DNA from: Clostridia bacterium
GTDB lineage: Bacteria; Bacillota_A; Clostridia; Christensenellales; Aristaeellaceae
Reading direction: 5' to 3'
Length of the DNA: 14,795 bases
Assembly (NCBI GenBank): GCA_017938785.1
Contig: JAGBAU010000085.1
Location: forward strand, 1-14,795
Position 1 is the stretch's first letter, and every line of letters starts with the position of its first letter. The notes beneath the pieces are model-generated. The model was not told the DNA's origin and did not search any database. It was given only the letters and a program-made list of their open reading frames with translations. The position numbers and the translations under genes were made by a program. Shown here one piece after another: positions 249-14,795 of the stretch.

Positions 249-277
249 GGCGGCCCCTAAAGGGGCTGCCTTTTATT
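249..277 (+). terminator. Terminator-like hairpin inside the IS200 right end, plus-strand direction
   Basis: GGCGGCCCCT (249-258) and AGGGGCTGCC (261-270) pair over ten positions, with one G-U pair, and are followed by TTTTATTT on the plus strand. It would stop transcripts entering from the HxlR gene before they run antisense through tnpA. Protection from outside transcription is known for IS200; assigning that role here is inference. Confidence 0.6.
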
Positions 278-743
278 TGCCTTTCTTTCCCGGCTCACCC
301 GTAAACGGGTCAATCAGTTCATTCATCGTCAACTGTTCATACTGTTTGTCTTCCGCTAGTTGATTCCGAATGTATTCTTCGATCGCTTTTTTATTGCGCC
401 CGACCGTGTCCACATAGTATCCTCTGCACCAGAATTGTCTGTTCCCATACCGATACTTCATATTCGCAAACCGATCAAAGATCATCAGCGAGCTTTTCCC
501 CTTCAAATATCCCATTATCTCCGCTACACTGTACTTTGGTGGTATGCTTACCAGCATATGGATGTGATCTGGGCATGCCTCCGCTTCGTGGATTTCTATC
601 CCTTTGCGTTCGCATAGCGTTCTCAGTATCCTCCCTATCTCTACTCTGATCTTTCCGTAGATTATCTGTCTACGGTATTTCGGTGCAAACACGATGTGAT
701 ATTTGCAATTCCAGGTCGTATGTGCTAAACTATTCTTGTCCAT
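273..743 (-). CDS. tnpA: IS200-type Y1 (HUH) transposase TnpA
   Basis: A 156-residue protein of the usual family length (about 130-155). TnpA cuts and rejoins single-stranded element ends through a covalent 5'-phosphotyrosine, working as a dimer. The HUH metal-binding pair is H60-I-H62 in PDHIHMLV. The nucleophile is probably Y124 with its partner Q128 in EEYIRNQ, the Y-x3-Q spacing seen in IS608 TnpA. The N-terminal KYHIVFAPKYRR segment is typical of IS200. I start at the ATG at 741-743 because an AAGGAG site lies eight bases upstream and family members begin there; an in-frame ATG at 788 would add 15 residues unlike the family. There is no frameshift or internal stop, so the copy may be active. 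Confidence 0.93.
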   Translation of the reverse strand: MDKNSLAHTTWNCKYHIVFAPKYRRQIIYGKIRVEIGRILRTLCERKGIEIHEAEACPDHIHMLVSIPPKYSVAEIMGYLKGKSSLMIFDRFANMKYRYGNRQFWCRGYYVDTVGRNKKAIEEYIRNQLAEDKQYEQLTMNELIDPFTGEPGKKGK

Positions 744-7849: not shown

Positions 7850-7878
7850 AGTATAGCACACTTGCGCCGATCACGCAA
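7850..7878 (-). promoter_or_regulatory. Promoter of the exported-protein gene, overlapping the phoR stop
   Basis: On the minus strand TTGCGT (7873-7878) and TATACT (7850-7855) are 17 bases apart, with TGC directly before the -10 (extended -10). A 6-bp hairpin (7861-7866 with 7874-7879) sits in the same place but has no T-run, so phoR transcripts may read through into this gene. Confidence 0.6.
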
Positions 7879-9505
7879 GCGGCGGAAATTCCAGGGTGAT
7901 GCAGGTGCCCCTGCCCTCGCGGCTGTCGAGGCGAATCTCCGCGCCGTGAATCTCCGCGCCGTGCTTGACGATGCTCAGGCCCAGGCCGGTGCCGCCGGTG
8001 GCGCGGGAATGGCTCTTGTCCACCCGGTAGAAGCGTTCGAAGATGCGGCCCTGGTGCTCGGCGGGGATGCCGATGCCGGTATCGCGCACCATGCACCGCG
8101 TGCCCTTCACCTGCACGTCCACCCTGCCCCCGGCGGGGGTGTACTTCACGGCGTTGTCGATGAGGTTATACAGCATCTCGCCCAGCAGCACCCGGTAGGC
8201 GCGCACGGGGCCGCTGTCGCCGGTCACATGCAATTCCACGCCCTTCTCCCGGGCGATGACTTCAAGCCCCGCCGCAGCCTCCTGCGCCGCGGCCAGCAGC
8301 GACATGTTCTCGCTCTCGCCGATGCCGCGCCGCTCGTCCAGCCGGGAGAGGGCCAGGATGTCGTTGATCAGGTTCAGCAGCCGCGCGGCCTCACTGTGGA
8401 TGCGCCCGGCGAAGCCCGGTATGTCCTCCGGGCGCGCCACGCCGTCGCGTATGATCTCCGCGTAGCCGGATATGCTGGTCAGCGGGGTCTTGAGCTCATG
8501 GGAGACATTGGCGGTGAACTCCCTTCGGCTCTGCTCGGCGGCGTAATGCTCGGTCACATCCAGCACCAGCAGCACCGCGCCCTCGGTGCGCCCGCGGGCC
8601 AGCACCGGGTTGGCCAGCAGCTGGTAATGCCTGCCGTTCCACTCCATGGGCAGGCTGGTGTAGCGGCCGGTGAGGGCGGTGTACACCGCATCCCCCACGC
8701 CGGGGGTATGGCAGGCGGAGAGCATATCCTTGCCGATGTTGTCGCCGTCGCTGACGCCCAATACGATCTCGGCGCTGGAGTTCATGGCCAGTATGATGCC
8801 CTGGTAATCCAGCAGCACCATGCCCTCGCGCATGTTGTCCACGATGGTGGAAAGGTTGCGCCGGGCCTCATCGCGGGCGCGCATGTGGCGGTCCATGCGG
8901 GTCAGCAGCGGGGTCAGCTCATCGTAAATCTTATTTTCCAGCGGCGCGCGCAGATCCAGCGCGTTCAGGGGCGCCACGATGCGCTGGGCCTCGATGCGGG
9001 CGATAACCAGCGAAAACAGCACCACCACGGCGATGATCACGCTCAGGCTGGGCAGCACGCTCAGCAGCACGCCCAGGGCGCTGGAGCGCACGCTGGCCAC
9101 GCGCAGGATGTTGCCGTCGTCGGTGCGCAGGGCGTAATAATAGGTGCTCTCGGCCAGGGTATCGGAATAGCGCTCGGCCTCGCCCCAGCCGTTTTCAAGG
9201 GCGTTTTGAACCTCGGGGCGTAAGGCATGGTTGTCCAGGGCGGCGGCGTCGGTGCTGCTGTCGTAGAGCACGGTGCCGTCCCCGGCGATGAGGGTCACGC
9301 GGTTGCGGGAGGAGAAGCCGTCGAAATAGGCCTGTTCGTCCACGGCGCGGCTGAGGGCGTAGCGCAGGCTGTCCGCCTCGCTGCGCAATTCACCGGTCAT
9401 GTCTCCCTCATAGATGCCAAACAGCGACAGCACAATCAGCGCTGCCGCGAGGGTGGCCGCCAGCAGCGCGGAAATCACCACGCTGCGGAATATACGTCTG
9501 GTCAT
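7871..9505 (-). CDS. phoR: Phosphate-regulon sensor histidine kinase PhoR
   Basis: A 544-residue kinase with helices at about 10-30 and 148-168 enclosing an extracytoplasmic domain of about 115 residues, then a linker, a PAS domain (about 220-318) and the kinase core. H336 in SHELKTPLTSI is the phosphorylation site. The N box NLIDNAVKYT (447-456), G1 DTGIGIP (475-481), F box IFERFY and G2 GGTGLGLSIV (504-513) are intact. A large external domain plus PAS is the Gram-positive PhoR layout, unlike the short E. coli form. It follows phoB by 21 bases with GGAGGA seven bases before the ATG, and ends the pst-pho run. PhoR would read phosphate status through the Pst transporter and PhoU. Confidence 0.93.
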   Translation of the reverse strand: MTRRIFRSVVISALLAATLAAALIVLSLFGIYEGDMTGELRSEADSLRYALSRAVDEQAYFDGFSSRNRVTLIAGDGTVLYDSSTDAAALDNHALRPEVQNALENGWGEAERYSDTLAESTYYYALRTDDGNILRVASVRSSALGVLLSVLPSLSVIIAVVVLFSLVIARIEAQRIVAPLNALDLRAPLENKIYDELTPLLTRMDRHMRARDEARRNLSTIVDNMREGMVLLDYQGIILAMNSSAEIVLGVSDGDNIGKDMLSACHTPGVGDAVYTALTGRYTSLPMEWNGRHYQLLANPVLARGRTEGAVLLVLDVTEHYAAEQSRREFTANVSHELKTPLTSISGYAEIIRDGVARPEDIPGFAGRIHSEAARLLNLINDILALSRLDERRGIGESENMSLLAAAQEAAAGLEVIAREKGVELHVTGDSGPVRAYRVLLGEMLYNLIDNAVKYTPAGGRVDVQVKGTRCMVRDTGIGIPAEHQGRIFERFYRVDKSHSRATGGTGLGLSIVKHGAEIHGAEIRLDSREGRGTCITLEFPPLA

Positions 9506-9526: not shown

Positions 9527-10204
9527 TCAGCGGCCGCCGAAGCGGTAGCCCACGCCGCGCACGGTTTCGATCATCTCGCCGCAGGGGCCCAGCTTGGAGC
9601 GCAGGGTTTGGATGTGCACATCCACGGTGCGGGTGCCGCCGATGTAGCCGTAATCCCATATGTGCTCCAGCAGCGCTTCGCGGCTGAACACCGCACCCCG
9701 GTTCTCCATCAGGAAGTGCAAAAGCTCGTATTCCTTCAGGGTGAGGGCCACGTCCCTGCCCTCCACGGTCACGGTATGGGCCACGTTGTCCAGCGTCAGC
9801 GCCCCGGCGGCGTGCACGTGCTTTTCGGTCTCGCGCACGCTCTTGACCCGGCGCAGCCGGGCGCGCACCCGGGCCACCAGCTCCGCCATGCCGAAGGGCT
9901 TGGTGATGTAATCGTCCGCGCCGGTGTCCAGGCCCATCACCTTGTCGTATTCCGCGCCCTTGGCGGTGACCATGATCACGGGAATCTCCTGGGTGTTGCG
10001 GTCATCGCGCAGCCTGCGCAGGATGGACATGCCGTCCTCGTTGGGCAGCATGATGTCCAGCAAAATCAGCTCCGGCTTTTCCAGCGCCATGCCCGCGTCG
10101 AAGGCGGCGCCGTCCCGGAAGCCCCGGGTGGGCAGGCCCATCTGGGTCAGGGTGTAAACCACCAGTTCGCGGATGTTGTCATCATCTTCCACATAGTAGA
10201 TCAT
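9527..10204 (-). CDS. phoB: Phosphate-regulon response regulator PhoB/PhoP
   Basis: A 225-residue OmpR-class regulator: receiver with E6-D7-D8, phosphorylation site D50 in LLDIMLPNEDG, T80 in VTAKG and K102 in TKPFG; winged helix from about 130 with RTVDVHIQTLRSKLG and TVRGVGYRF. The start at 10202-10204 gives the usual MIYYVEDD opening and has AAGGAG ten bases upstream. It overlaps the phoU stop by 4 bp (ATGA). Location behind pstSCAB-phoU and before phoR identifies it as the phosphate regulator (named phoP in Bacillus). The Pho-box-like repeats at 14254-14271 are its likely target. Confidence 0.93.
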   Translation of the reverse strand: MIYYVEDDDNIRELVVYTLTQMGLPTRGFRDGAAFDAGMALEKPELILLDIMLPNEDGMSILRRLRDDRNTQEIPVIMVTAKGAEYDKVMGLDTGADDYITKPFGMAELVARVRARLRRVKSVRETEKHVHAAGALTLDNVAHTVTVEGRDVALTLKEYELLHFLMENRGAVFSREALLEHIWDYGYIGGTRTVDVHIQTLRSKLGPCGEMIETVRGVGYRFGGR

Positions 10205-10857
10205 GATAGGGTTTCTCCTTTGTGCCTGCCGGTGATGGCGTATTCCACCCACTCGGCAATGTTCTGTGCGTGATCGCCGATGCGCTCGAAGTACTTGGCG
10301 ATCATGAGCAAATCGATGGCCTGGGAGCCGTTCTTCGCGTCCAGGCGGATCAGGGAAATCAGCTCCTCCTTGATGATGTCAAAGAGCTCGTCGATGGCGT
10401 CGTCCATGTCCATCACCCGCCGGGCCAGCTCCAGATCCCGGCGCACATAGGCGTCCAGGCTGCCGGTCACCATGCGGATGGCCTCGTCGGCCATGCGGGG
10501 CAGGTGCTCCAGCTTCTTCATGTAGGGCTCATTGGCCAGGTAGATCACGATGCCGGAAATATCCGCCGCCTGGTCGCCGATGCGTTCCATATCGGTGATC
10601 ATCTTCAGCGCGGCGGAGATGTGGCGCAGGTCCCTGGCCACGGGCTGCTGCTGCAAAAGCAGCTTTAAGCACAGGCTCTCGATCTCCTTTTCCTTCTGGT
10701 CGACCTCCCGGTCGGCGGTGATGGCGTTTGCGGCCGCGTCCACGTCCTGATCGATCAGCGCCCGGGTGGCGGCCTGGATGGATTCCACGATCAGCCTTCC
10801 CATCTCCTGCATTTCCTCATTCAAAAGCGCAAGCTGCGCGTCAAAGCGGTTTCTCAT
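10201..10857 (-). CDS. phoU: Phosphate transport regulator PhoU
   Basis: A 218-residue protein with two tandem three-helix bundles. The metal-binding signatures are ERIGDQAAD (91-99) and ERIGDHAQN (191-199), the conserved pair that binds a multinuclear metal cluster. PhoU links the Pst transporter to PhoR and keeps the Pho response off when phosphate is plentiful. The start ATG 10855-10857 has GGAGG ten bases upstream and follows the pstB stop by one base; a longer frame would overlap pstB by 80 bases. The stop overlaps the phoB start. Confidence 0.95.
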   Translation of the reverse strand: MRNRFDAQLALLNEEMQEMGRLIVESIQAATRALIDQDVDAAANAITADREVDQKEKEIESLCLKLLLQQQPVARDLRHISAALKMITDMERIGDQAADISGIVIYLANEPYMKKLEHLPRMADEAIRMVTGSLDAYVRRDLELARRVMDMDDAIDELFDIIKEELISLIRLDAKNGSQAIDLLMIAKYFERIGDHAQNIAEWVEYAITGRHKGETLS

Positions 10858-10858
10858 A

Positions 10859-11608
10859 TCAGCCGAACCTCCCCGTGATGTAATCCTCGGTGCGCTTGTC
10901 CCCGGGCACGGAGAAGATCTGCTGGGTCTCCCCGTACTCAATCACCTCGCCCAGCAGGAAAAACGCCGTCCTGTCGGAGATGCGCACCGCCTGCTGCATG
11001 TTGTGGGTCACCATGATGATGGTGTAATCCTTCTTGAGCTGCAGGGCCAGATCCTCGATCTTCGAGGTGGAGATGGGGTCCAGGGCGCTGGTGGGCTCAT
11101 CCATCAGCAATACCTCCGGCTCCACCGCCAGGGCCCGGGCGATGCACAATCTCTGCTGCTGGCCGCCGGACAGGCCCAGGGCGTTCTTCTTCAAACGGTC
11201 CTTCAGCTCGTCCCATATGGCCGCATCGCGCAGGGATTTTTCGACAATTTCGTCAATTTTCGACTTTGCCTTCACGCCGTGGGTGCGGGGACCGAAGGCG
11301 ATATTGTCGTAAACCGACATCGGGAAGGGGTTCGGCTTCTGGAACACCATGCCCACGCGCCTGCGCAGCAGGCTGGGCTCCATGCCGCCGTATATATCTT
11401 CGCCGTCCAGGGTCACTTTTCCTGTTATTTTGCAGCCCTCCACCAAATCATTCATGCGGTTGAGGGTTTTGAGCAGGGTGCTCTTGCCGCAGCCGGAGGG
11501 CCCGATGAAGGCGGTGATCTCCTTTTCACGTATGGAAAGGTTCACATCCTTCAGGGCGTGGAAGCTGCCGTAGTGCAGGTTCAGATTCTGTATATCAAAT
11601 TTTACCAT
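10859..11608 (-). CDS. pstB: Phosphate ABC transporter ATP-binding protein PstB
   Basis: A 249-residue ABC ATPase, the family's usual length, that powers phosphate import on the cytoplasmic face of PstCA. Walker [10 protein letters not shown] (36-44), Q-loop VFQKPNPFP (88-96; this sequence is typical of PstB), signature LSGGQQQR (146-153), Walker [13 protein letters not shown] (166-177) and switch H202 in VTHNMQQA are all intact. The start overlaps the end of pstA by 14 bp, with GGAGG eight bases before the ATG. Confidence 0.97.
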
Positions 11609-12431
11609 GTTTGTTTCCTCCCAGCCTGCCCGCCGCGAAGGTGGACAGGGCGTTGATGCCGATCACGATCACCAGCAGCACCACCGCCGTGGCGTAGCTC
11701 TGCTTCAGGTACAGCCCCTCCGTGGAGATGGCGTACATGTGCACCGACAGCGTCCGAACGGAATCCATCAGGCTGCCTGCGATCTCCGGCACGGTGCCTG
11801 CGGTGTAGATCAGCGCCGCGGTTTCGCCCACGATGCGCCCGATGGCGAGGATCACCCCGCCCAGTATGCCCGGCGCCGCCGCGGGCAGCACCACCCGGAA
11901 GGTGGTTCTCAGCCGCCCCGCGCCCAGGCCGAAGCTGCCCTCGCGGTAGGAATCGGGCACGGCGGCAAGCGCCTCCTCGGTGGTGCGCATCACCAGCGGC
12001 AACACCATGATGGACAGGGTCAGCGCGCCGGAGCGCAGCGATAGCCCCAGCTTCAGCGCCACCACGAAGAACCGCGAGCCGACCAGGCCGTAGATGATCG
12101 ACGGTATGCCGCTCAGGGTCTCCGCGGTGAGGCGCACCAGCTTCACAAGCCGGCTGCCCCGGCGGGCGTATTCGTTTAAGTAAATCGCCGCGCCCACGCC
12201 CAGCGGCACCGCGAACAGCAGCGACAGCGCCGTCATAAACAGGGTGTTCACCAGCGCGGGCATGAGCGATACGTTCTGGGAATTGTATTCCCAGGCAAAC
12301 AGCTCCGGGCTCAGGTTCGGGATGCCCCGGATGAGGATGTACCCCACCATCAATACCAGCACGCAAACCGTGAACCCCGCCGCCGCGTATACCGCGCCCC
12401 GCATCATGCGGGCCTTCGTTTTGTTGGACAT
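11595..12431 (-). CDS. pstA: Phosphate ABC transporter permease PstA
   Basis: A 278-residue inner-membrane permease with about six helices and a MetI-like fold. The coupling loop facing PstB is the stretch [20 protein letters not shown], and the GIPSIIYG motif is typical of Pst permeases. Two in-frame ATGs compete: 12437 overlaps the pstC stop as ATGA but stands only three bases from AGGGGAG, while 12431 has nine bases, so I chose the latter; the difference is two residues. It pairs with PstC to form the channel. Confidence 0.95.
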
Positions 12432-12433
12432 AC

Positions 12434-13279
12434 TCATTTTCTCCCCTTCAGCAGGCTGAACATCAAATTGATGATCAGTATGAACACAAACAGCACCACC
12501 GCCGTGGCGATCAGCGCCTCCCGGTGCAGATCCGCCGCATAGCCCATCTCCATGACGATGTTGCTGGTCAGGGTGCGCACGCCCTTGGTTAAACCCTTGG
12601 GCATGCCGGTGCGGTTGCCCGCCACCATCATCACCGCCATGGCCTCGCCGATGGCCCGGCCCACGCCCAGGATGACGCCCGCCATCACGCCGGATTTGGC
12701 TGCGGGCAGCACCACGCTAAACACGCTGCGCTCGTGGGTGGCGCCCAGGGCCAGCGCGCCCTCGTAATAGCTCACGGGCACGGCGTTCAGCGCGGATTCG
12801 GAAACGGTGATGATGGTGGGCAGGATCATCATGCCCAGCAGCAGGCAGGCGGACAAGAGGCTCGAACCGCTGCCGCCGAAGATTTCGCGCACCGCGGGCA
12901 CGATCACCACCAGCCCAAAAAAGCCGTACACCACCGAGGGGATGCCCGCCAGCAGCGATACCGCGGGGCGCAGGATTTTCACCTGCTGCTTTGTTGCAAA
13001 CCTGGACATGAACACCGCTGTGAGCAGTCCCGCGGGCACGCCCACGATCAGCGCTCCCGCCGTCACATACACCGAGCCCAGGATCATGGGCAGGATGCCG
13101 TAGACGTCGTTGCCGGGCTTCCATTTCGTGCCGGACAGGAAATTCCAAACGCCGATTCTGCGCATGCCCGGAATGCCGTTTGCAAACAGGAACACGCAGA
13201 TCAGGGCCACCGCCAGTATCGAAATACAGGCCGTGCATATAAAGATGAGCCTGGCAAATTTCTCTTTGAATTCTTTCAT
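12434..13279 (-). CDS. pstC: Phosphate ABC transporter permease PstC
   Basis: A 281-residue permease with about six helices, GIPSVVYGFFG in the middle and the coupling loop AAKSGVMAGVILGVGRAIGE. This is the first permease of the pair. I start at the ATG at 13277-13279, giving the basic MKEFKEKFARL opening before the first helix; its ribosome site (AAGGG) is weak. An upstream in-frame ATG at 13336 would lie inside pstS and adds a non-family leader. A 43-base gap with a stem-loop separates it from pstS. Confidence 0.95.
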   Translation of the reverse strand: MKEFKEKFARLIFICTACISILAVALICVFLFANGIPGMRRIGVWNFLSGTKWKPGNDVYGILPMILGSVYVTAGALIVGVPAGLLTAVFMSRFATKQQVKILRPAVSLLAGIPSVVYGFFGLVVIVPAVREIFGGSGSSLLSACLLLGMMILPTIITVSESALNAVPVSYYEGALALGATHERSVFSVVLPAAKSGVMAGVILGVGRAIGEAMAVMMVAGNRTGMPKGLTKGVRTLTSNIVMEMGYAADLHREALIATAVVLFVFILIINLMFSLLKGRK

Positions 13280-13322: not shown

Positions 13323-14162
13323 TTATGCAATTTCATCCCAGTCGGTCACTTCGCCCGTGTAGATGCCCTGCACCTGCTGCGCGCTCAGGCCGTCCACGCT
13401 GTTTTCGTTGCTCACAATCACGGCGATGCCGTCCATGGCGATCACGATGGGCGTAAGGCCCGCCTCCAGCTCGCTGTCCTTGAGCTCACGGGAGGCCATG
13501 CCGATGTCGCACACGCCGTCCTTCAGGGAATTCATGCCCGCGGAGGAATCGCTCTGCTGGATTTCGATTTCGGCGTTGGGATTCAGGGCGGTGTAGGCCT
13601 CCTTCAGCTTTTCCATCACCGGGGTGACGGAGGAGGAGCCTGCGACCACAACCTTGCCGGAGATTTCGCTGCCCGGATATGCCGGCGCGTCCTCAACGGA
13701 GGCGATGTAGCCGTTTGCCTCCACCACAGCCTGGCCCTCGGCGCTCAGGATGAAGTCGATGAACGCCTGGGCGGCTTCGGTGACGTTTGCGCCGGTGGCG
13801 ATGTTGAACGGGCGGGCGATTTTGTAGCTGCCGTTCTTGATGTTCTCAACGCTTGCCGCCGCGCCGTCGATGGCCAGGGCCTTCACCGTTTCGTTCAGGC
13901 TGCCCAGGGAGATGTAGCCGATGGCCGCATCGTTGCCGGACACGCTGGTCATCATGACGGAGGTGGAGTTGGTGATGTCCGCCTCATCGGTGGTCATGTC
14001 GATCTTCACGCCGTTTTCATCCTTCTGCTCGATGCCGAAGAGCTCGATGAACGCGCCGCGGGTGCCGCTGCCGTCCTCGCGGGAGATGACGTTGATTTCG
14101 TCCGCCAGCGCCGCGCCGGTGACCATCAGCATTGCCAGAACCAGTGCCAGGATTTTCTTCAT
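13323..14162 (-). CDS. pstS: Phosphate-binding protein PstS with circularly permuted halves
   Basis: A 279-residue exported binding protein of the phosphate transporter. Residues 1-20 form a signal peptide ending in ALA, without a lipobox Cys. In ordinary PstS the segment GSSSVTP...IYTG-x-x-x-x-W comes first and the SRE-x-GSGTR-x-x-F segment second. Here SREDGSGTRGAF is at residues 27-38, followed by the usual C-terminal half (NIATG, FILSAEGQ, ANGYI at 149-153), then a linker (154-169), then AGSSSVTPVMEKL (174-186), QQSDSSAGM (202-210), DIGMASRELKDSE (219-231) and finally IYTGEVTDWDEI (267-278). Both phosphate-binding loops are kept, so the fold can close normally. The start ATG 14160-14162 has AAGAAGG nine bases upstream. 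First gene of the pst-pho run. Confidence 0.93.
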   Translation of the reverse strand: MKKILALVLAMLMVTGAALADEINVISREDGSGTRGAFIELFGIEQKDENGVKIDMTTDEADITNSTSVMMTSVSGNDAAIGYISLGSLNETVKALAIDGAAASVENIKNGSYKIARPFNIATGANVTEAAQAFIDFILSAEGQAVVEANGYIASVEDAPAYPGSEISGKVVVAGSSSVTPVMEKLKEAYTALNPNAEIEIQQSDSSAGMNSLKDGVCDIGMASRELKDSELEAGLTPIVIAMDGIAVIVSNENSVDGLSAQQVQGIYTGEVTDWDEIA

Positions 14163-14326: not shown

Positions 14327-14542
14327 ATGAACCTCAATTACACCATCACCTACCTGAAATGCCAGAGCTGTACGGCAAAGATCCACTGCGACGACTGCGC
14401 TGCAGAGCTCACCGAGCGCCTTTTAAAGGACGGCGTGAAGGCCGCCATCGACATCCCTGGCCGCAGCGCCCGCATCGAAACAGCCATGGACGAGGATGAT
14501 CTTCTCGACCTGCTGGAGGAAACCGGCGTATTCGCCGACTGA
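14327..14542 (+). CDS. Small four-cysteine protein, HMA-like, unknown function
   Basis: A 71-residue cytoplasmic protein. Two CxxC pairs stand close together: C12-x-x-C15 and C21-x-x-C24, with H20 beside the second. The predicted order strand (YTITYLKC), helix (AAELTERLLKDG), strands (VKAAIDIPGRSARIET) and helix (DDLLDLLEETG) resembles the beta-alpha-beta-beta-alpha fold of heavy-metal-associated (HMA) domains, but those have a single CxxC, so this could be a zinc- or copper-binding variant. GGAG lies nine bases before the ATG. It is transcribed divergently from pstS and followed by a strong terminator. No metal transporter is nearby to name the metal. Confidence 0.85.
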   Translation: MNLNYTITYLKCQSCTAKIHCDDCAAELTERLLKDGVKAAIDIPGRSARIETAMDEDDLLDLLEETGVFAD

Positions 14543-14612: not shown

Positions 14613-14636
14613 CTTCCCAAATCCCGACAAACTTGT

Positions 14637-14795
14637 TATAATGATTAGGAATTCATTTATGAATTCCGGGTCGGCGGGCGGCGGTTCGTAAACCGCACGC
14701 CGACAATCACGGTATAATGATTAGGAATTCATTTATGAATTCCGGGTCGGCGGGCGGCGGTTCGTAAACCGCACGCCGACAATCACGGTATAATA
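14637..14795. repeat. Perfect 76-bp tandem repeats with two hairpins per unit, running off the window
   Basis: Unit 1 (14637-14712) and unit 2 (14713-14788) are identical over all 76 bases; a third begins at 14789 and is cut by the window end, its seventh base (14795) already differing. Each unit starts with TATAAT, then a perfect AT-rich hairpin (unit 1: 14648-14667, 9-bp arms, TT loop), then a GC-rich nested hairpin (unit 1: 14670-14704; outer arms GTCGGCG/CGCCGAC, inner arms GCGGTT/AACCGC). The 13 bases before unit 1 (from 14624) partly match the end of the unit, suggesting a worn edge. There is no open reading frame of note. Its nature is unknown. Confidence 0.9.

Follow-up and report, generated by a model that had tools for sequence, protein, structure and literature searches.

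A circularly permuted phosphate-binding protein PstS encoded in the pst operon of a Clostridia bacterium and its relatives

The pstS gene in a 14,795-nucleotide stretch of DNA from a Clostridia bacterium (contig JAGBAU010000085.1 of assembly GCA_017938785.1; this whole stretch is hereafter called the window) encodes a phosphate-binding protein of the importer PstSCAB, and we confirmed that the two halves of this protein are exchanged, i.e., that it is a circularly permuted PstS. Such permuted PstS proteins are real, widespread in Clostridia, present in numerous gut-dwelling and anaerobic bacteria and already represented by a deposited structure, and they appear undescribed in the searchable literature. 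We are highly confident that the window gene is a genuine, working member of this group.

Both conserved halves of PstS are present in the window protein and the canonical N-to-C order is absent. When the protein was searched with phmmer against the Protein Data Bank (PDB), the canonical chain 4q8r was matched in two stretches (residues 169-278 of the query with 4-113 of the chain, 90 bits, and residues 23-149 with 120-239, 86 bits) and canonical 4gd5 also gave two exchanged stretches; the chain of 4h1x was matched in a single colinear stretch (query 20-278, chain 8-264; 220 bits, E 3.1e-64). The TIGR02136 profile was matched in two stretches as well, the best of which aligns residues 160-278 with profile positions 30-155, and we read this split as the reason why the score of 192.8 bits falls below the curated NCBI cut-off of 206.6. 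The initial annotation, made from the sequence and its open reading frames, had described the halves as reversed and had suggested aligning them separately to canonical PstS. The reversal is borne out, since each half falls on 4q8r in exchanged order and no full-length alignment in canonical order was obtained, canonical chains and the profile being matched in two stretches. The motif SREDGSGTRGAF lies at residues 27-38, inside the half placed first, GSSSVTP lies at residues 175-181, and the chain ends at IYTGEVTDWDEIA, and the break between IYTG-x4-W and I-x-V-x-SRE is found where it had been placed. A new linker does join the former C- and N-termini, but its proposed extent of residues 154-169 needs a small correction to about 154-168 (approximately 15 residues), because a strand begins at residue 169 in the DSSP assignment of the predicted structure.

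An AlphaFold model of the window PstS (predicted local distance difference test score, pLDDT, 94.1) superposes on 4h1x at 1.3 Å over 257 residues, and the two proteins are colinear over 257 residues with 47-48% identity. According to this model, both chain ends would lie in lobe 2, in the surface loop by which IYTG-x4-W is connected to I-x-V-x-SRE in ordinary PstS, and the former termini in lobe 1 would be bridged by the linker, so that the order of lobes would be 2-1-2 as opposed to 1-2-1 in canonical PstS. With both lobe-crossing strands unbroken, closure of the protein around phosphate would proceed as in any other type II binding protein, and the ligand would be passed on to PstCA, probably with unchanged hinge and docking. 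It had been suggested that the permutation could change hinge motion; this is not supported, since the cut appears from DSSP of the model to sit in a loop within one lobe (lobe 2) and both lobe-to-lobe strands appear intact. An altered hinge is thus not expected, and ordinary binding is, the cut lying in a surface loop of a single lobe.

By scanning species genomes, at least 597 stretches with the pattern were detected, 579 of which encode relatives of the query (canonical ones possibly included), and the best 80 were kept. All 80 loci show a colinear match in swapped order. They are mostly titled Clostridia, the exceptions being Pyramidobacter (L041), Desulfovibrionaceae (L061 and L069) and Flexilinea (L079), which agrees with the mention in the initial annotation of similar sequences in some Clostridia; named strains with the permuted order include Thermoclostridium caenicola and Acetivibrio mesophilus. 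Among 171 PstS-like frames, many of them redundant and most from loci chosen as relatives, the order was swapped in 133 and canonical in 35, and one half was recognised in the remaining 3. A protein search with the window PstS yielded 7997 matches at E <= 0.001, among which canonical relatives must be included beyond the best 120; all of these 120 have at least 79% identity and at least 97% coverage. One-stretch matches running through both halves, as counted by us from match rows and including the centre genome that was picked for having the protein, were found in 5 of 61 genomes from the phylum of the Pyramidobacter genome, at least 9 of 249 from that of Thermoclostridium, 2 of 251 from that of Flexilinea and 1 of 247 from that of the Desulfovibrionaceae genome, as well as in 17 of 101 genomes from the order of the genome of L001 and 41 of 146 from the order of Lachnospiraceae bacterium A4 (the last four samples were cut at E 1e-25). 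Permuted PstS also occurs on plasmids: one of Treponema saccharophilum carries pstS-C-A-B-phoU with a permuted PstS, and a Monoglobus plasmid record gives a match over 97% of the query. The annotated permuted copies on plasmids (n=2) are both named 'substrate-binding domain-containing protein'. Phage carriage was considered as well and rejected, as 8 of 9 records from phage collections are unannotated 'Bacteriophage sp.' entries of faecal origin and were judged likely to be bacterial DNA.

The window pstS is the first gene of a complete pstSCAB-phoU operon, which is followed by PhoB/PhoR-like genes (Table 1), and pstC, pstA, pstB and phoU all exceed the cut-offs of their own profiles, consistent with the earlier statement that the rest of the operon is ordinary. 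Surveying the homologues for association with pstCAB, another suggestion of the initial annotation, gave a similar picture: pstC was detected at 79 of the 80 loci, starting within 450 bp in 76 of them, and the order pstSCAB-phoU on a single strand was found in all 67 loci having the five genes. No pst genes were detected beside the permuted pstS of Flexilinea (L079). An IYTG-x4-W-type motif lies within the last 22 residues of 150 of 152 permuted sequences (a redundant set). Two loci (L019 and L039) contain two permuted pstS genes in tandem ahead of pstC, and a second, divergent PstS-like gene is located near the permuted pstS in two others, in permuted order at L032:3514-4425 and with one half only recognised at L018:2782-3591.

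It is very likely that permuted PstS serves a real phosphate importer. The 4h1x record names SP_2084 of Streptococcus pneumoniae TIGR4. In the available part of one paper (PMC6722419), SP_2084-8 is described as Pst1 together with PhoU, under activation by PnpR/S, and S. mitis, S. oralis and S. infantis are reported to lack it; in that of another (PMC4913102), pst1 is induced approximately 210-fold at 10 uM phosphate, and loss of pst1-phoU1 cuts the initial rate of uptake by about half. As SP_2084 belongs to an importer induced at low phosphate, the permuted form very likely works. Several points weigh against this assessment. The molecule in 4h1x is named 'pstS 2' in PDB, as opposed to Pst1 for SP_2084-8 in the papers, although the locus tag decides and SP_2084 is therefore taken as Pst1; the pneumococcal uptake data in the accessible text come from deletions of the whole operon and not of pstS alone; and phosphate binding by permuted PstS, the window protein included, is what we infer. 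Moreover, the AlphaFold model is not independent of 4h1x, from which AlphaFold may have learned, and the lobes of the window PstS are those we presume from secondary structure and general knowledge rather than from coordinates.

Recruitment of the permuted protein for another ligand or for sensing, with a canonical PstS elsewhere handling phosphate, seems quite improbable. All 26 genomes that were chosen for the permuted pair of stretches contain it, and by our reading (weak N-terminal matches aside) 7 of them (G001, G002, G003, G012, G013, G024 and G025) have a further canonical, partial or divergent TIGR02136 match, which speaks for such a division of labour; however, the adjoining pst operon is complete, the motif residues are conserved, and the solved relative 4h1x belongs to Pst1 with its induction at low phosphate. 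It is scarcely conceivable that the swapped order results from an assembly or annotation artefact or from the joining of parts of two different genes. Although the end of the window carries an imperfect 76-bp tandem repeat, the same colinear order is present in the named strains mentioned above, in all 26 of the chosen genomes and in the crystallised 4h1x, and an assembly or frame artefact is excluded by its occurrence in 133 of 171 frames and in that structure.

The lack of a lipobox had also been noted, together with a possible effect of the permutation on anchoring. The signal peptide of the window PstS indeed contains no Cys, but the tie to the permutation does not hold: a loose lipobox pattern, which yields false positives, fits 64 of 75 de-replicated permuted proteins, and loss of the lipid anchor as a consequence of the permutation is thus not supported. 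Absence of the lipobox appears to be a general trait of the lineage. Among the loci nearest the window (L001-L007 and L009), five fit no lipobox pattern, and in L001, L004 and L005 the fit is only a loose one, next to an A-x-A site. In the near kin, other binding proteins mostly have type I-like signal peptides. From 30 SBP_bac_1 loci (L231-L260) of six genomes close to the window, 23 N-termini were readable and inspected by eye; one is a clear lipoprotein (L248) and 18 fit no pattern, and in L231, L232, L237 and L243 a Cys agrees with the loose pattern but is followed by an A-x-A-like or comparable site. Extracellular binding proteins of this kin lineage are mostly without a clear lipobox although Lgt was matched in all six genomes; Omp85 was found in none of the six, and was found in the comparison genomes G012 and G015. 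Tether length shows no difference, the medians for permuted and canonical lipobox proteins being 19 and 18 residues, respectively.

The permutation may have originated in Clostridia when a tandem duplication was fused and then trimmed, and it may have reached other phyla carried within the pst operon. A candidate for the tandem-fused intermediate did not hold: G176 (L151) has two adjacent canonical pstS genes that are in the same frame and unfused. A permutation could arise from a tandem pair of this type.

A further group of loci (Table 1, last row) has operon partners nested among those of permuted operons, yet its own PstS halves are in canonical order, with an odd joint. The usual IYTGxxxxW-type joint motif is present in 31 of 38 ordinary canonical proteins and in none of 25 odd-joint proteins (matches with the usual joint, L225, L229 and L230, had been assigned to the canonical set). 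For a joint tree of PstC, PstA and PstB, loci with PstC above 80 bits and two partner genes were taken (4 of 64 fell short, namely L276, L285, L286 and L287), L289 and L293 were dropped and 14 rows were thinned, leaving 44 rows and 798 columns. In this tree permuted operons surround the odd-joint clade (branches of 32, 18 and 16 rows, supported at 100/97, 100/99 and 100/98, respectively), and a PstC tree (93 of 198 rows kept) agrees. A single clade of permuted operons was rejected (20 rows, 91 log units, approximately unbiased (AU) test p 2.3e-5; all 21 rows held together, 111 log units, p 8.8e-5), although this p-value is optimistic because the odd-joint clade had been delimited earlier from PstS and joints and the PstC tree had been viewed before the test. 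A single open frame spans PstC and PstA in 15 of 15 loci of the odd-joint clade, 4 of 29 permuted operons and none of 16 canonical ones (one without PstA in view); this permease fusion of approximately 595-773 residues occurs in L199, L200 and L262-L274 and also in L188-L190 and L193. It is not a clean shared mark, since the operon tree requires two changes for it, L192 and L160 being unfused.

Phylogenetic analyses of PstS, with the halves aligned in a common order, do not settle how permuted and odd-joint proteins are related. A quick tree (71 of 123 rows kept by identity) needs three changes of order. In a second tree (67 rows; L101, L192, L032_3514, L129 and L194 left out, L200 added) and a third (58 of 100 rows kept), the permuted proteins form one side in no bootstrap tree; holding them as one side costs 0.25 log units in the second sampling (p 0.497) and gains 0.89 log units missed by the search in the third (p 0.512). 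The third tree places ordinary canonical proteins on one side (87/91), with permuted proteins and the odd-joint clade opposite. This grouping was lost in a further sampling, in which none of the three groups (permuted, canonical and odd-joint) is one side, three long branches were flagged and the test of permuted versus odd-joint proteins gave p 0.091. Constraining PstS to the operon grouping (the odd-joint clade plus six divergent permuted rows of the same operon branch) gave p 0.0525, with a canonical row falling inside.

We tentatively propose that the permutation is reversible: an ancestral clostridial operon would have turned permuted, and one descendant clade would have returned to canonical order by a shorter joint without IYTGxxxxW. 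The nesting of the odd-joint clade in permuted operons fits such a possible reversal, the odds of which are lowered by the unsettled PstS trees, the unclean fusion mark and the optimistic AU value. To our knowledge, such a round trip is undescribed. It is also possible that permutation of PstS took place repeatedly at one and the same loop, instead of in a single event followed by reversal, considering that permuted operons are not one clade by the AU test, that PstS alone is undecided in all three samplings tested, and that L194 (G981), whose PstS is permuted with the same cut, adjoins canonical rows in both sequence and operon and may represent a second origin. However, approximately 4 or 5 separate permutations at one loop would then be needed, and the fewest changes, by our reading of the tree, are two. 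Somewhat doubtful is a replacement, in which the odd-joint clade kept or acquired a canonical pstS in place of the permuted gene of its operon. The near rejection of odd-joint PstS forced together with the six divergent permuted rows, and the canonical row inside that grouping, would agree with it, whereas the third PstS tree has the odd-joint clade on the permuted side, opposite the ordinary canonical proteins, and for each half of L199 the six best matches are permuted proteins.

Table 1. Features of the window, by position and strand, and loci of the canonical-order clade with an odd joint
Feature	Location	Strand	Evidence
pstS, circularly permuted, 279 aa + stop	13323..14162	-	translation, profile and PDB searches, AlphaFold model
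Signal peptide, residues 1-20, ...TGAALA, no Cys	14103..14162	-	sequence; lower-confidence N-terminal stretch of AlphaFold model
Residues 21-153, canonical C-terminal half, placed first (SREDGSGTRGAF ... FIDFILSAEGQ)	13704..14102	-	phmmer vs 4q8r 120-239
Residues 154-168, new linker between former C- and N-termini	13659..13703	-	PDB search and DSSP of model
Residues 169-279, canonical N-terminal half, placed last (GSSSVTPVMEKL ... IYTGEVTDWDEIA)	13326..13658	-	phmmer vs 4q8r 4-113
pstC	12434..13279	-	TIGR02138, 284.8 bits vs cut-off 196.45
pstA	11595..12437	-	TIGR00974, 266.9 bits vs cut-off 193.45
pstB	10859..11608	-	TIGR00972, 415.1 bits vs cut-off 343.2
phoU	10201..10860	-	TIGR02135, 203.3 bits vs cut-off 130.25
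PhoB-like response regulator	9527..10207	-	TIGR02154, 227.2 bits, under cut-off 296.2
PhoR/PnpS-like sensor kinase	7871..9505	-	NF046044 PnpS, 280.2 bits, under cut-off 400
IS200-like Y1 transposase	273..740	-	
Small divergent gene	14327..14542	+	marginal heavy-metal-associated domain, 25.0 bits vs cut-off 24.8
Imperfect 76-bp direct repeat, two copies	14624..14775		GGAATTCATTTATGAATTCC in each copy
Canonical-order clade with odd joint	L199, L200, L203-L224, L226-L228		PstS matches and joints

Elsewhere in the window, a small divergent gene adjoins pstS, the repeat lies near the window end, and an IS200-like transposase gene is present; an Rfam search of the window gave no match.

These proteins constitute an extensive natural collection of circularly permuted binding proteins that serve one importer, beside canonical relatives at approximately 40% identity, which makes the effect of chain order and of the tethered lobe on binding and docking testable. 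Family profiles such as TIGR02136 can undercall them, and public annotation can be vague. The reversal, if true, would be a rare case of chain order switching back. No description of permuted PstS was found in the literature searched, as the initial annotation had anticipated, with the proviso that coverage of subscription papers is incomplete and absence thus unproven; no word beginning 'permut' occurs in the accessible part of PMC4913102. The window PstS shares its chain order and predicted fold with 4h1x (SP_2084, Pst1), which comes from Streptococcus, where the genes for regulator and kinase are located upstream (PMC4913102, part of the text), whereas those of the window are downstream of the operon. 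The canonical PstS structures of C. perfringens, 4q8r and 4gd5, match both halves at approximately 40% identity over the structure-aligned part but have them in the opposite order, with approximately 130 residues aligning in one pass. Another natural circular permutation of a binding protein, Tp0684/MglB-2 of Treponema pallidum, has been proposed as 'Type Ic/Cluster Bc', with relatives in treponemes and Gram-positive, many of them gut, bacteria (PMC4990184, available part). Set beside the window PstS by its description there, MglB-2 differs in having a Type I sugar-binding fold, another cut and a fourth cross-over, and its permutation is presumably an event unrelated to that of PstS.
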